This document shows, piece after piece, positions 3-5,047 of a stretch of DNA of 5,047 nt. A program made the translations under genes and the position numbers. This DNA comes from an uncultured Candidatus Melainabacteria bacterium (lineage in GTDB: Bacteria > Cyanobacteriota > Vampirovibrionia > Gastranaerophilales > Gastranaerophilaceae), in contig CAKUQA010000134.1 in assembly GCA_934675225.1 (NCBI GenBank), forward strand, positions 1 through 5,047, written 5' to 3'. Below the pieces are notes generated by a model that was not told the origin of the DNA, did not search any database, and saw only the letters and a program-made list of their open reading frames with translations. Each line of letters begins with the position of its first letter. Position 1 is the first letter of the stretch.

Positions 3-1058
3 GTAAACAAAGAGCAACAGTTAGAAATGTTGAATAATACATATCAAAACAGTGGCATTGAAGCTCGTAAGTACGCAGGTGTTAATAACTATCAATCTTA
101 TGAAGAAAACCAGTTACCTTTGCATAACAAAGCTATTCAGGATAAAGAAGTTAACGATGCGATGGTTGAAGCCGGAACATACTCTCAATATTCAGCAAAA
201 AATCAAACAGCTGCTTTCAATGCTCATAAACAAAGATATGAACAAAATGACTACAACGAAAAAGAAGCTATTGCAGGTTTAAATAAGTTATCTGATAATA
301 TTTATAAATGCGACAAAGATAATCAGCTTGCTATGCATAATGAAATAATGAATACAAAGTATTCAGAAGTTCAAGAACATGCCGCTGCTAATATTAAGAA
401 CTATGAGGGTGATGTTCAAACAAAAGCATTAAGCACTGTATATAAATCAGGTAATGAAAAAGCTATTGCGGTTGCGGTCAATGAAGTTATTCCGGCTATA
501 AAATCTCCTGATGCTCAAAAACTTGCTTTGAAACAAGCAGTTATGGAGCTTTCCGGAGTTGTTGATACAACAGAGTTGCAAGCAAAATTTGCAAACGGAA
601 CTTTGACAAAGGCTGAAATTGCAAAACTTTCTTCAACCAAGCGCCGTGATTATTATATAAGATTATTTGATAATGCAACACCGGCTGAAAAAATTCAATA
701 TTTGAGAAGCATTCCTAACGGAAGAAATAAAAATACTATCTATAGCTTAATTGTAAAATATTATCCAAATTTATTTGAAGATTTAATTAAAACAGATGCA
801 ACACTTGCTGAAACTGTATATAATATGGCAGGTTTGGATAAAAAAGCTAAAGATACTGCGTTAAAAGTAATAATGAATATGACTACTTCTGATTTTGTAT
901 CATTAAGAAATAAATTACATTTGAATGATAATAAAGATTTAGCATCAGTTGAAACTAATCCTGTAACAGCTAAGACAGTTAATATGGCTACTCCTCCAAT
1001 GGGTTTTGATACCAAAGAGATTTATCCAAAAGATAGAAAAGGCATTTATTACGTATAA
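3..1058 (+). CDS. Unrecognised helical-repeat protein, 3' part (5' end outside window)
   Basis: I do not recognise this family. The reading frame is open from base 3 to the TAA at 1056-1058. The first in-frame ATG (27) has no Shine-Dalgarno before it, and the upstream codons (VNKEQQLE) read as ordinary protein, so the true start is probably beyond the left edge. Counting from ATG 27, residues 1-95 are polar and rich in Asn, Gln, Tyr and Lys. Residues 99-180 show a degenerate 15-18 residue helical periodicity (segments beginning NQLAMH, VQEHAA, VQTKAL, AIAVAV, AQKLAL). Residues 219-300 form more amphipathic helices, and the tail is Pro/Thr/Lys-rich. No signal peptide or membrane segment lies in the visible part, and the single Cys is residue 95. 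The repeats suggest a HEAT- or TPR-like helical scaffold, which is inference only. Codon use looks like that of its neighbours. A hairpin terminator follows 26 bases after the stop, so it is transcribed separately from ispH. Confidence 0.8.
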   Translation, partial: VNKEQQLEMLNNTYQNSGIEARKYAGVNNYQSYEENQLPLHNKAIQDKEVNDAMVEAGTYSQYSAKNQTAAFNAHKQRYEQNDYNEKEAIAGLNKLSDNIYKCDKDNQLAMHNEIMNTKYSEVQEHAAANIKNYEGDVQTKALSTVYKSGNEKAIAVAVNEVIPAIKSPDAQKLALKQAVMELSGVVDTTELQAKFANGTLTKAEIAKLSSTKRRDYYIRLFDNATPAEKIQYLRSIPNGRNKNTIYSLIVKYYPNLFEDLIKTDATLAETVYNMAGLDKKAKDTALKVIMNMTTSDFVSLRNKLHLNDNKDLASVETNPVTAKTVNMATPPMGFDTKEIYPKDRKGIYYV

Positions 1059-1261: not shown

Positions 1262-2131
1262 TTGCCTGAAAAAAATATAAAATTAGCGAAATATGCAGGT
1301 TTTTGCTACGGAGTAAAAAGAGCAGTAGAAACCGTTAAAAAATTAAAAGCCGAAAACCCTGATAAGAACGTATTTGTTCTGGGTGAACTTATTCATAATA
1401 CACAGGTTATTCATGAGCTTGAAAAACTAGGGATTAAAACTTTGACTGAAATACCTGAACACGGTAATGGTATTTGTGTTATTCGGAGCCATGGTGAAAG
1501 TCCTGAAGTTATTGAAAAAATTAAGCAAGCAGGATTTGAGCCTGTTGATTTGACTTGTCTTGACGTAAAAAAGGTTCAACAAAAAGCTATAGAACTTGCA
1601 AAGGATGATTATTTTGTTGTAGTTGTCGGAAAATCAGAGCATCCGGAAGTTATTGCAATTAAGGCAAATGCTAAGTTGTATAGCGATAATGTTGTAGTTG
1701 CGGCATCTGTAGAACAATTGAAAGAATATGAGTCTCAAATTAAAGCTCATAAACGAGTAGGGGTTGTTGTTCAAACTACACAGAGAATTACAACTTTGAC
1801 AAGTATTGTAGATTATTTGATTTCTGTCGCAAAAGAAGTTCATGTCGCAAATACGATTTGCAAAAGTACTTCTATGCGCCAAACAGAAGCAAAAGAACTT
1901 GCTAAAGAAAGTGATTTAGTAATAGTTGTAGGTTCTAAAAAAAGTGCAAATACTACACATTTGGCAGAAATTTTAAAAGATATAACAAAAACAATTCATA
2001 TTGAAAATGATGATGAATTGGATTTGTATAAAGATTTGATTGAAAAATCAAAAAATATTTCAATAACTGCAGGGGCATCGACTCCGCAAAATGTTATTGA
2101 AAGAGTTGAAAAGTGGATTAGAAGCAAATAA
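1262..2131 (+). CDS. ispH: 4-hydroxy-3-methylbut-2-enyl diphosphate reductase (IspH/LytB)
   Basis: This cytosolic iron-sulfur enzyme does the last step of the MEP pathway, reducing HMBPP to isopentenyl and dimethylallyl diphosphate. Its 289 residues match the usual length. The three cluster cysteines are present: C15 (GFCYG), C99 (DLTCLD) and C200 (NTICKST). The substrate-binding residues are also visible by comparison with E. coli IspH: H45 (LIHN), H77 (RSHGES), H127 and E129 (the HPEV motif, E129 being the proton-relay glutamate), T172/T173 (QTT), S228 and N230 (KSAN), and S273 (AGAS). The residue between S228 and N230 is Ala where E. coli has a second Ser. The start is TTG at 1262: an in-frame TAA lies at 1256-1258, no ATG is available before the GFC motif, and this start puts GFC at the expected distance. 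A weak Shine-Dalgarno-like GAAAGAAG (1243-1250) precedes it. rpsA follows after 49 bases in a different frame, probably in one operon. Confidence 0.96.
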   Translation: MPEKNIKLAKYAGFCYGVKRAVETVKKLKAENPDKNVFVLGELIHNTQVIHELEKLGIKTLTEIPEHGNGICVIRSHGESPEVIEKIKQAGFEPVDLTCLDVKKVQQKAIELAKDDYFVVVVGKSEHPEVIAIKANAKLYSDNVVVAASVEQLKEYESQIKAHKRVGVVVQTTQRITTLTSIVDYLISVAKEVHVANTICKSTSMRQTEAKELAKESDLVIVVGSKKSANTTHLAEILKDITKTIHIENDDELDLYKDLIEKSKNISITAGASTPQNVIERVEKWIRSK

Positions 2132-2180: not shown

Positions 2181-3251
2181 ATGACACAAACATTAGACAA
2201 AATGGATGAATTTGAAAGATTGTTAGAAGAATCTTTCTCAAAATCTTATTCTGTAGCTGATATCGTTGAAGGTACAGTTTTGAAAAAAGAAAACGAAGGA
2301 TATTTGGTTAGCGTAAAAGGAGCTAAAACAGAAGCTTTCTTACCTAACAAAGAAATTTCTTCTTCTGATAATGCTGAATCATTGGAAATCGGTGATGAAA
2401 GAGAATTTTATGTATTAAAAGAAGAAAATGATGAAGATGGCATGGTTCTTTCTCTTAAAAGACTTGCTTATGCTCAAGCTTGGGCTCAACTTAATGATGC
2501 AAAAGTTCAAGGTGATACTATCCTTGCAAAAGTTGTTTCAATTGTTAAAGGTGGCGTTTTAGTTGACGTTGCTGATTTGAAAGGTTTTATTCCTTCTTCT
2601 CAATTGAGAACCGGTACTCCTTTTGATGGTTTGATTGATACAAAAATCGAAGTTAAAGTATTAGAAGCTGATCCTAAGAAAAATAAACTTATCTTGTCTC
2701 AAAGACAAGCTGTTGCAGAACAAAGAGACCAAGTTGTTGACAATATTTTGTCAGAACTTGAAGAAGGTCAAATCGTAAAAGGTGAAGTTGTAAGAATTGC
2801 AGATTTCGGAGCATTTGTTGATATCAACGGAATTGACGGTTTATTACCAATTTCTGAAATTTCTTGGTCAAGAATTAAACACCCGTCTGATGTAATTTCT
2901 TTAGGTGAAACAATTGAAGTTAAAATTATTAAAATTGATAACGAATTGAAAAGAATTTCTTTATCACTAAAAAGAATGGGCGAAGATCCATGGCAACAAA
3001 TTGAAGGTCAATTTGAAGAAGGCCAAGTAATCAAAGGAACTGTTAACAAAGTTACTGGATTTGGTGCATTCATCAATATCTTCCCTGGAGTAGAAGCATT
3101 GTTACCTGTTTCTGAAATGAGCAGTGAAAATGTTAATCCGTTCAACCAATTCAAAGTTGGTGACAGTGTTGAAGTTCTTATTAAGAAATTCACTCCACAA
3201 GAACACAGAATTGCTTTGAGCATCAAAGATATTAACAAAGATGCTGAATAA
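2181..3251 (+). CDS. rpsA: Small ribosomal subunit protein S1, four S1 domains
   Basis: S1 binds mRNA on the 30S subunit and helps initiation on structured or weak-SD messages. The 356 residues carry four S1 (OB-fold) domains at about 27-94, 109-175, 196-265 and 281-349. The third and fourth are the most canonical, with GEVVRIADFGAFVDI...GLLPISEIS and GTVNKVTGFGAFINI...ALLPVSEMS, each closing on an I-x-LS(L/I)K strand. The N-terminus (MDEFERLLEESF) resembles the acidic helix of other S1 proteins that anchors on protein S2. The ATG is supported by AAAGGAA upstream. Four domains is shorter than the six-domain proteobacterial form and close to the four-domain forms of Gram-positive bacteria; cyanobacterial S1 usually has three. 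Adjacent ispH and S1 genes, sometimes fused, are known in clostridia; here they are separate. A strong terminator follows 19 bases after the stop. A general S1-domain RNA-binding protein is the alternative, but the N-terminus and length favour true S1. Confidence 0.93.
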   Translation: MTQTLDKMDEFERLLEESFSKSYSVADIVEGTVLKKENEGYLVSVKGAKTEAFLPNKEISSSDNAESLEIGDEREFYVLKEENDEDGMVLSLKRLAYAQAWAQLNDAKVQGDTILAKVVSIVKGGVLVDVADLKGFIPSSQLRTGTPFDGLIDTKIEVKVLEADPKKNKLILSQRQAVAEQRDQVVDNILSELEEGQIVKGEVVRIADFGAFVDINGIDGLLPISEISWSRIKHPSDVISLGETIEVKIIKIDNELKRISLSLKRMGEDPWQQIEGQFEEGQVIKGTVNKVTGFGAFINIFPGVEALLPVSEMSSENVNPFNQFKVGDSVEVLIKKFTPQEHRIALSIKDINKDAE

Positions 3252-3270
3252 GTGATTTAATTAAATTGTT

Positions 3271-3300
3271 AAAAACCGCTCTTTTAAAGGGCGGTTTTTT
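3271..3300 (+). terminator. Strong intrinsic terminator of the ispH-rpsA unit
   Basis: The arm AAAAACCGC (3271-3279) pairs with GCGGTTTTT (3291-3299). The stem continues inward through a T-G wobble and three more pairs to a 3-base loop. The 3' side ends in a run of six T (3295-3300). The A run on the left arm means it could also act on the reverse strand. The -35 box of the next gene begins two bases later. Confidence 0.9.
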
Positions 3301-3301
3301 G

Positions 3302-3330
3302 TTGAAATTATTAGAAAAATTTGTTATACT
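3302..3330 (+). promoter_or_regulatory. Sigma-70 promoter of the prepilin gene (extended -10)
   Basis: TTGAAA (3302-3307) and TATACT (3325-3330) are separated by exactly 17 bases, with TG at 3322-3323 making an extended -10. Each hexamer differs from consensus at one position. Transcription should begin near 3337, leaving a leader of about 26 bases before ATG 3363. The promoter starts directly after the rpsA terminator, so the prepilin gene is an independent unit. Confidence 0.85.
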
Positions 3331-3347
3331 GAAAAAGTAAAGTTAAA

Positions 3348-3354
3348 AAGGAGA
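3348..3354 (+). promoter_or_regulatory. Strong Shine-Dalgarno that fixes the prepilin start at ATG 3363
   Basis: AAGGAGA ends 8 bases before ATG 3363, an ideal spacing. This decides the start: TTG 3382, the only start codon in the prepilin frame before the leader cleavage site, has no such site, and an in-frame TAG lies at 3373-3375. Translation should therefore begin at 3363, in a frame that does not match the prepilin body. Confidence 0.88.
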
Positions 3355-3362
3355 GATTTTTT

Positions 3363-4152
3363 ATGCTAAATTTAGATTTATTTGTTCGTCGGGGGGGGGC
3401 AATTAGCGGCTCCTACAGAGGGTTTTACCTTAGCTGAGGTTTTAATTACCCTTGGGATTATCGGAGTTGTTGCAGCATTAACAATTCCTACTTTACTTGC
3501 AAATTATAAAGAGAAGGTTCTTGTTACCGGTGCTAAAAAATCGTATACTCAAACGGTTAACGCTGTAAATAAGTATATTGCAGAAAATGGATCGATTGGT
3601 GATTATTCTTATTTTTGGTCATCAAATTCTACGCATGATAAGGCTTTAGAAGCTTTGGCAAGTGAATTAAACGCTGTTAAAATTTGTACAAGTCGTGATA
3701 ATATGAATAATTGCGGTGGAAAATATGACATAAAACAATATAAAAAAATGAATGATGGTACCGGTAAAACGCAACAAGTTGGATTATTAAATAATAATAG
3801 AATTGTCTTGGCTGATGGTAGTTTCGTTGCAACACTAAATGAGGTTCAAAATGGAGATTGTACGCATTCTTATTTCTCTTTTGATAGGGATGAAAACGGA
3901 AATAATATTCCGGATTCTTCAAGTCCAAATGGGTTTAAGGGAGAAACCAAATATAGCTCAAATTGTGGTTTTATTTTGTTTGATACTAATGGTTTAAAAG
4001 GTCCAAATCAAGTAGGAAAAGATGTTTTTCAATATGGTTTTTTAGCAGACAAAGTTGGTAATTTGAGTAACGATGGATACGGAAATCTCAGATATGTTCT
4101 TGCTAATGACAAATTGATAAAAACAGAAAATTATACAATAGGAGATTTTTAA
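3363..4152 (+). CDS. Type IV prepilin/pseudopilin-like protein, out of frame at a G9 tract
   Basis: This is a class III prepilin-like surface or secretion protein. From ATG 3363 the frame reads MLNLDLFVRRGG, then leaves the prepilin frame in a run of nine G and stops at TGA 3435-3437 after 24 residues. The body lies open in another frame up to 4152. One G fewer (or two more) gives a continuous 262-residue protein. Its 20-residue leader carries Arg-Arg and ends in Gly, followed by the cleavage motif G|FTLAE with Glu at +5, the hydrophobic helix (VLITLGIIGVVAALTIPTLL) and a 242-residue mature form. Counting from TTG 3382, the globular part has Cys at 102, 111, 160 and 195 (two possible disulfides), a calcium-loop-like DRDENGNNIPD (168-178) and a DTNGLKGPN...GKDVF motif (201-216). 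Leader processing would need a prepilin peptidase encoded elsewhere. Whether it builds a pilus, a pseudopilus or a minor subunit cannot be told. It may be phase-variable, a recent pseudogene, or intact with a homopolymer sequencing error. Confidence 0.85.
3391..3399 (+). repeat. Homopolymer G9 tract inside the prepilin leader
   Basis: Nine consecutive G lie between the translation start and the prepilin cleavage site, in an AT-rich region where no other G run approaches this length. In the 9-G state the start is out of frame with the prepilin; 8, 5 or 11 G would join them. Such runs are prone to slippage in replication and also to sequencing error. Confidence 0.95.
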
Positions 4153-4190
4153 AAACTAAAGTCGAGATATTATCTCGACTTTAGTTTTTT
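4151..4190. terminator. Bidirectional terminator between convergent prepilin and sigma genes
   Basis: A perfect 17-bp stem (4151-4167 with 4173-4189) closes a 5-base TATTA loop. The left arm begins with five A and the right arm ends in six T, so each strand shows a stem followed by a T run. It starts inside the prepilin stop codon and ends 7 bases before the sigma gene stop codon, so it can serve both genes. Confidence 0.92.
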
Positions 4191-4196
4191 ATATTT

Positions 4197-5047
4197 TTAT
4201 TCTCCAAAATAATTTTTTAAATCTATTGCAAGTTTTTTGTTTTTACAAAGTTTTTTTAGTTTTGCTATTGCTCGATTTTCGATTTGGCGAATTCGTTCTC
4301 TTGAAACTCCATATTGAGAACCGATTTCATCAAGTGTTTTCTTGGCTCCGTTGTTGTCTAATCCATAGCGAAGGATTAATACATCACGTTCTTTTGGGCT
4401 AAGTTGACTTAGCATTTTTCTAATATCTTCAAATAAATTTTCTTGAGAAACTCTGCTGTCAGGAGTAATAGAATCCTCGTCTACAATAAAGTCCGCAATT
4501 TTTGATGAATCTTCTGAAGAACTTGCCGGAGTTTCCATGCTTATTGTAGATTGAGCCGATTTTACAATTGATGTTAATTTACTAACCGGAACTCCTAAGC
4601 GATATGCAATTTCTTGTTTTGTAGGAGTATGACCTAGTTCTGTTGTCAAGTCAATTGTTGCTCGTCTAATTTTTCCAAGAGATTCAATCATGTGGATTGG
4701 TAGTCTTATAATCCTTGCTTTGTCGGCAATTGCGCGTGTTATTGATTGTTGAATCCACCATGTTGCATAAGTTGAAAACTTGTATCCTTTTTTATAATCA
4801 AATCTGCCTGCAGCTTTCATTAAGCCCATATTGCCTTCTTGAATTAAATCTAAGAAAGAAAGTCCACGACCGATATATTTTTTAGCGATACTAACAACAA
4901 GACGGAGATTGGCGTTGACCAATACATTTTTTGAAAATTCGTCGTGTTCTTCAAATATTTTTTTAGCAAGATCAAGTTCTTGTTCATGCGACAAAAGAGG
5001 GATTTTTCCGATTTGTTGCAAATATATTTTAACACTGTCATCAGAAT
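4197..5047 (-). CDS. RNA polymerase sigma-70 family factor, RpoD/SigA type (5' end outside window)
   Basis: This promoter-recognition subunit of RNA polymerase has 282 residues visible, and the frame is open to the right edge. The apparent TTG start at 5021 is not real: the upstream codons read SDDSVKIYL and continue into QQIGKIPLL, the usual region 1.2 block. From the first complete codon at the edge, region 2 covers about 40-110 (NLRLVVSIAKKY, LDLIQEGN, FSTYATWW at 90-97, IQQSITRAIAD). Region 3 follows (RLPIHMIE). Region 4 starts near 215 (LSPKERDVLILRYGL) and holds the -35-binding helix-turn-helix at 237-263 (TLDEIGSQYGVSRERIRQIE). The Q and T of region 2.4 that read the -10 box in E. coli are kept, although the Arg of WWIRQ is Gln. 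The tail (CKNKKLAIDLKNYFGE) is longer than the usual RpoD end. It could be the primary sigma factor or a group 2 relative; the missing N-terminus would help decide. Its promoter is outside the window. Confidence 0.93.
   Translation of the reverse strand, partial: SDDSVKIYLQQIGKIPLLSHEQELDLAKKIFEEHDEFSKNVLVNANLRLVVSIAKKYIGRGLSFLDLIQEGNMGLMKAAGRFDYKKGYKFSTYATWWIQQSITRAIADKARIIRLPIHMIESLGKIRRATIDLTTELGHTPTKQEIAYRLGVPVSKLTSIVKSAQSTISMETPASSSEDSSKIADFIVDEDSITPDSRVSQENLFEDIRKMLSQLSPKERDVLILRYGLDNNGAKKTLDEIGSQYGVSRERIRQIENRAIAKLKKLCKNKKLAIDLKNYFGE

Follow-up and report, generated by a model that had tools for sequence, protein, structure and literature searches.

The closest described counterparts of the locus presented here are the homopolymeric contingency loci of Campylobacter and Neisseria. 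Campylobacter strains carry 5–81 such loci each, with 53% of the runs at G9 and 26% at G10 (PMC6321876, in the portions drawn on here). In Neisseria a homopolymer inside the coding sequence (G 9–20 in pilC) switches a pilus-related gene and glycosyltransferases switch too, and pilE varies via recombination with pilS, repeats being present in 23 of 607 pilS alleles (PMC5953494, likewise in the sections drawn on). The window analysed here, a 5,047-nucleotide stretch from an uncultured Candidatus Melainabacteria bacterium of the Gastranaerophilales, contains a G9 run which, judged from its sequence and that of its relatives, is most probably a slipped-strand ON/OFF switch of a pilus-like surface subunit, belonging to a large and probably OFF-by-default repertoire. 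The kind of element is already known, namely the poly-G contingency locus, and the Campylobacter phasome displays similar features: an AT-rich background, G/C runs of about 9–10 in the frames of surface genes, peaked lengths and many loci. In contrast, the runs of this lineage lie mostly in prepilin leaders, number up to 176 of at least nine bases per genome (counted as runs, not as proven switches), are in frame in about one-tenth of cases, have a modal length set by lineage that is sharper than the one in Campylobacter, and carry C on both sides. Similarly, one or two pilC genes and glycan genes switch in Neisseria, whereas tens of pilin subunits would do so here. Scale, pilin targets, OFF default, lineage-set length and C borders are new as far as the literature searches reach. 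These covered the open PMC literature, with subscription papers and preprints outside their scope, and found no paper on phase variation in Gastranaerophilales, on homopolymeric prepilin phase variation in cyanobacteria, or on homopolymeric-tract phase variation in gut metagenome-assembled genomes. Melainabacteria are mentioned beside homopolymeric sequence in one paper and beside phase variation in another, the two being a tree of ribosomal proteins and a survey of flagellins.

The run is located between ATG 3363–3365 and the prepilin body (Table 1). Translation from the ATG would leave the run in a frame that soon closes, while the frame of the body is open from CAA 3400 to TAA 4150–4152, and the two would be joined if the run were one G shorter or two longer. 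The preliminary description had given this same layout of Shine-Dalgarno, ATG, G9 and out-of-frame stop, together with a body intact for more than 240 codons and reached by losing one G or gaining two; both are borne out by the sequence, the body measuring 250 codons. A change of run length thus joins or splits the start and an otherwise intact body. Runs of at least seven consecutive G have a chance mean of 0.01 in the window and the observed count was reached in 0 of 200 shuffles, so that a homopolymer of at least eight in the coding part, as present here, exceeds what chance would give. The strong promoter also claimed earlier fared less well: a site is present, but the match alone is weak because 10 promoter-like sites are found in 3200–4260 against 4.7 in shuffles. 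No start codon was found between the G run and GFTLAE in the window.

Table 1 Features of the window around the G9 run, with the neighbouring genes.
Feature	Position	Strand	Basis or remark
Frame, no assignment	3–1058		
IspH/LytB	1262–2131		
S1-domain protein	2181–3251		
Promoter-like site TTGAAA-17-TATACT	3302–3330	+	10/12 matches; AT-rich stretch, such sites common
Shine-Dalgarno AAGGAG, 9 nt 5' of ATG	3348–3353	+	Sequence, start-scoring script
Start codon and its short frame (24 codons, TGA 3435–3437)	3363–3437	+	Sequence
G9 tract, borders TC (3389–3390) and CA (3400–3401)	3391–3399	+	Sequence; border bias in relatives
Frame of the prepilin body (250 codons, then TAA), not in frame with ATG 3363	3400–4152	+	
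Signature for prepilin processing, G/FTLAE (cleavage predicted after Gly 3421–3423)	3421–3438	+	Sequence, TIGR02532 match
Terminator-like hairpin, T-rich tail	4151–4189	+	3' of pilin gene
Sigma-70 factor	4197–5045	minus	

The body shares the signature of proteins with a prepilin-type N-terminal domain, matching TIGR02532 (GFxxxE) at 20.1 bits, above the curated cut-off of 16.3. It reached none of the equivalog cut-offs (GspG, ComGC, GspH and others), and a Pfam search of the body at 0.001 returned no family. Type IV pilus genes are reported for this bacterial group in the part of PMC5877343 drawn on here. In two homologues, P0004 and P0015, a nine-residue leader, PPP and the body are all read in a single frame, as would be expected of the ON form. 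In addition, 13 of 30 homologues among the matches listed begin within four residues of GGG or PPP, which suggests that gene callers mis-start such pilins. Among the neighbouring genes, IspH has TTG 1262 as the first codon of its frame, with no ATG nearby, and the S1 protein shares 95% identity with those encoded at three relatives' loci (L001–L003).

The slot downstream of the S1 gene was compared across 80 loci, some of which end soon after that gene. A G run of at least eight lies within 400 nt 3' of the S1 gene in 13 of the 80, and in 10 of these 13 the run is followed within 400 nt by a motif resembling FTLAEVLITLG. The prepilin run in the slot is 9 bases long in the window, 10 in L003, L005, L009, L012 (where the start is ambiguous between two candidate ATGs), L017, L019 and L025, 11 and in frame in L010, and 12 in L031 and L044; in L032 the long run is lost, leaving 6 bases in frame. 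The run is therefore a feature of long standing in the slot, with a length that moves. Relatives lacking the run and keeping a fixed frame, which had been named beforehand as evidence against a switch, are thus not the rule, with L032 as the exception. Two further loci, L039 and L040, are 100% identical over 8 kb at the S1 gene yet come from genomes with 10 and 1 runs of at least eight, respectively.

Such runs are abundant in the order, where 66 of 97 genomes contain runs of exactly G10 and 19 of the 97, the tract-rich set, hold 28 to 169 each. In the genus of G002, 32 of 33 genomes contain G/C runs of at least nine (2019 in total, median 63 per genome); 176 is the maximum and six genomes have 11 or fewer. 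The succession of Shine-Dalgarno, ATG and run was matched 1192 times, in 30 of the 33 genomes, whereas the reversed pattern gave 27 matches (runs longer than nine being counted more than once), and this recurring layout supports the earlier reading of the locus as an ON/OFF contingency locus that is here OFF. Enrichment can be judged fairly in G002, G006 and G009 alone, because the stretches of G007, G010, G043, G063 and G115 were picked for runs. In the unpicked stretches of those three genomes, 34 of 44 runs of at least eight are followed by a prepilin motif at a distance of no more than 450 nt; the zone so defined makes up 1.6–3.8% of the bases. Of the 61 prepilin genes there, 34 have an upstream run and 27 have none. 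The runs consist of G or of C on the coding strand. A few occur in other genes, comprising TupA-like ATP-grasp (PF14305) and three bodies without a Pfam match, and one run-bearing frame matches glycosyl transferase family 2 just under its cut-off. At G002:C1:360419-361375 (L128–L129) two adjoining genes of glycan type each contain a C run; the TupA-like gene is in frame at C10 and the glycosyltransferase-like one is out of frame at C11. L255 (G043:C2:1-20000) has a frame that by eye resembles a sugar nucleotidyltransferase, with an in-frame G10 213 nt in. Some G007 leaders hold two long runs about 28 nt apart (L241:2022-2060, L242:15736-15773). Contigs end or start at a run at G007:C60:4648-4658, G007:C16:1-10 and G007:C51:10-19; as assemblies break at runs, the counts per genome may be low. 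The patterns used found no pilin relatives in the viral_contigs set, where four pattern matches look like chance or other organisms. One phage contig of 52% GC (L170:6900-7800, IMGVR_UViG_2885647308_000002) has two leaders with Shine-Dalgarno and ATG, separated by some 600 nt; one leads into TTTTC-G10 and the other into TTTTC-G9, and these may be run-controlled genes of its own or chance. On another viral contig (L167:800-880) a G10 lies within an inverted repeat (aaacatc ... gatgttt), so that the run could sit in a hairpin.

Closely matched genes of relatives were compared for tract length. The tract differs in length in four of eight such pairs and is the same in the other four; the pairs are between species, the window gene is not among them, one or two (at 81–87% identity) may be paralogues, and three derive from G007, an older draft whose sequence has N gaps at certain runs. 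Two of the differing loci, where the flanks are 94–99% identical, pair an in-frame G11 in G006 with an out-of-frame G10 in G007; the third differing pair is C10 against C9 and the fourth is L031 with G12 against L032, in which the run is lost. Run length thus varies at the same place between close relatives. The bodies are under purifying selection: dN/dS is 0.03–0.33 in six distinct pairs of relatives' bodies; in three of these pairs both members are out of frame, and in the rest one is. This conservation and the difference in tract length and frame state between closely matched genes uphold the ON/OFF interpretation. At their assembled lengths the out-of-frame genes cannot be read in the usual way. 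Ninety-one of 99 such genes (window included) have neither an in-frame ATG nor an in-frame GTG or TTG preceded by a Shine-Dalgarno, even a weak one, alternative in-frame starts being weak in six and good in two, and a start with a Shine-Dalgarno between run and motif was found in 0 of 88 genes.

The length of the runs is sharply peaked within genomes and the peak is set by lineage. Most tract-rich genomes have mode 10 (1132 G10, 84 G9 and 93 G11 in 17 genomes), mode 9 is found in G115 (48 G9) and G063 (28 G9, 9 G10), and mode 12 in G010 (G12 in 10 of 13 runs of at least eight, in 200 kb); the longest assembled run has 18 bases. These modes mostly fall outside the length class that would put the prepilins in frame. 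In mode-10 genomes 46 of 51 prepilin genes need a run of 3n+2 and 6 of 51 are in frame, in mode-9 genomes 36 of 37 need 3n+1 and 4 of 37 are in frame, in G043 all 14 need 3n+2 and one is in frame, and in G010 six of seven need 3n+2 and none is in frame. The mode-10 rule spans all three phases between start and run (23, 18 and 5 genes) as well as G (31) and C (15) runs; its 46 genes represent 28 distinct leader geometries, with paralogues sharing ancestry, so that binomial probabilities for the rule are too strong. The window, with G9 out of frame, fits the 3n+2 class. Three prepilin genes of G002 depart from the pattern in being in frame with the modal G10, two of G007 in requiring 3n and one of G063 in requiring 3n+2; mode-10 genomes also hold six genes, the window's own left aside, whose run of 9 calls for two more bases. 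A general rule by which the modal run is one base short holds in mode-10 and mode-9 genomes, is broken by G010 and was rejected. Altogether, the assembled run length puts 11 of 109 run-bearing prepilin genes in frame, with starts picked by a scoring script that took no runs near stretch ends, without a Shine-Dalgarno-preceded start or with a body below 100 codons, with 7 of 101 rows left out for N near the run, and with two prepilin-like rows (G063C4 72904 and G010_L245, both out of frame) that missed the motif and were classed as 'other'. By simple arithmetic a neutral frame predicts about one-third in frame, so the one-tenth found makes the OFF default unusual; in Campylobacter draft genomes the ON share lies nearer to the neutral-drift prediction (PMC6321876, in the portions drawn on). 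We infer that selection for sparse display, with each pilin shown in few cells, is the likely reason for the OFF default.

The sharp modal length could also be explained by the constant offset that frameshifting requires, and programmed slippage at the RNA level, by ribosome or RNA polymerase, would give steady low expression in every cell. The near-constant offset within a lineage, the modal run one base short in mode-10 and mode-9 genomes and the conserved bodies are all compatible with it. We regard it as unlikely, however, since G010 with its mode of 12 requires the opposite shift, the six length-9 genes would need two more bases, G and C runs on the coding strand both work at the same mode, and lengths differ within close pairs. 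No single fixed shift serves all members, as a programmed -1 frameshift would have it.

Another alternative is a silent store of out-of-frame copies donating by recombination to an expressed pilin gene, as pilS does to pilE in Neisseria. In G115 and G063 many runs have a left flank that matches one locus and a right flank that matches another, so that leaders look exchanged, and the prepilin N-terminus is almost invariant across paralogues, both of which would suit such a store. Against this, the copies come with a Shine-Dalgarno and a start codon, whereas pilS copies are not known to have a start; the bodies of the copies here are whole with dN/dS well below 1, and in-frame copies exist at several loci, which together make a silent store improbable. 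The prepilins of the same two genomes (L174–L213) have long leaders: about 100 codons or even more can separate the run from FTLAE, and this part is open in the frame of the body and is a patchwork of repeats.

An error of sequencing or assembly in the run, the real gene being in frame, deserves mention because homopolymers are error-prone and gaps occur at some G007 runs. It is nevertheless very improbable, as a single series of metagenome-assembled genomes (BRZ_) yields both mode 10 (G006, G009, G008) and mode 9 (G063) and the bodies are conserved. Runs of up to 18 were moreover assembled, and such runs can be sequenced accurately on Illumina according to the portions of PMC6321876 drawn on. 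Least credible of all, to the point of being nearly negligible, is an ordinary gene read from TTG 3382 or a young pseudogene, for although this TTG, upstream of the run, already shares the frame of the body and would give a leader of ordinary length, it has no preceding Shine-Dalgarno, a well-preceded in-frame start exists in only 2 of 99 out-of-frame genes, and the dN/dS well below 1 in all six pairs (of relatives' genes, the window gene not among them) speaks against decay.

Slipped-strand mispairing, in contrast, explains the occurrence of runs on both strands, the change of length, the conservation of silent bodies and the surface-gene targets. Replication slippage would occasionally gain or lose one G, and the new length would join start and body in a small fraction of the cells, which would then produce the prepilin. 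Prepilin peptidase would cut off the leader and with it the varying number of glycines, or of prolines if the run is C on the coding strand, and the mature pilin would be identical for every in-frame length. Located in a leader that is predicted to be removed, the run could thus vary without changing the mature pilin.

The C borders are not predicted by slippage. C stands beside the long runs in 87–90% of cases before and 80–98% after, against 23–41% for G4 to G6 runs of the same stretches. The bias is present at G runs before prepilins (45 sites) and at coding-strand C runs (12), and is weaker in other runs (19), with 74% and 79%. Outside the genus the borders look lineage-specific, with T often after the run in G046 and A before it in G073. 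A mobile element carrying the run was considered, given that the C-bordered run occurs on both strands and also outside prepilins; sequence conservation fades a few bases outside the run. Loss of mismatch repair was rejected as the cause of the runs, as MutS and MutL scored over cut-off in all 19 tract-rich genomes (at least 28 G10 runs). The seven of 97 genomes without a mutS1 match over cut-off (G013, G016, G035, G092, G094, G096 and G098) have 0, 1, 0, 0, 0, 0 and 5 G10 runs, respectively. A broader account can be offered tentatively, in which Gastranaerophilales would hold tens to more than 100 surface genes under the control of runs, most of them prepilins; each would rest out of frame at a length set by its lineage (9, 10 or 12), so that a cell would show few pilins at a time. 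The C-bordered run on either strand would in that account serve specifically as a switch module, its length being maintained by some factor particular to the lineage.

The findings raise the question of what fixes homopolymer length in bacteria equipped with MutS and MutL. If the ON/OFF switch reading is true, an uncultured gut lineage would have a switch repertoire exceeding the surveyed maxima of 81 loci in Campylobacter and 82 in Neisseria lactamica, as given in the portions of the surveys drawn on here. This repertoire would be aimed at pilin subunits and OFF by default, and would offer a testable account of surface variation in the host.
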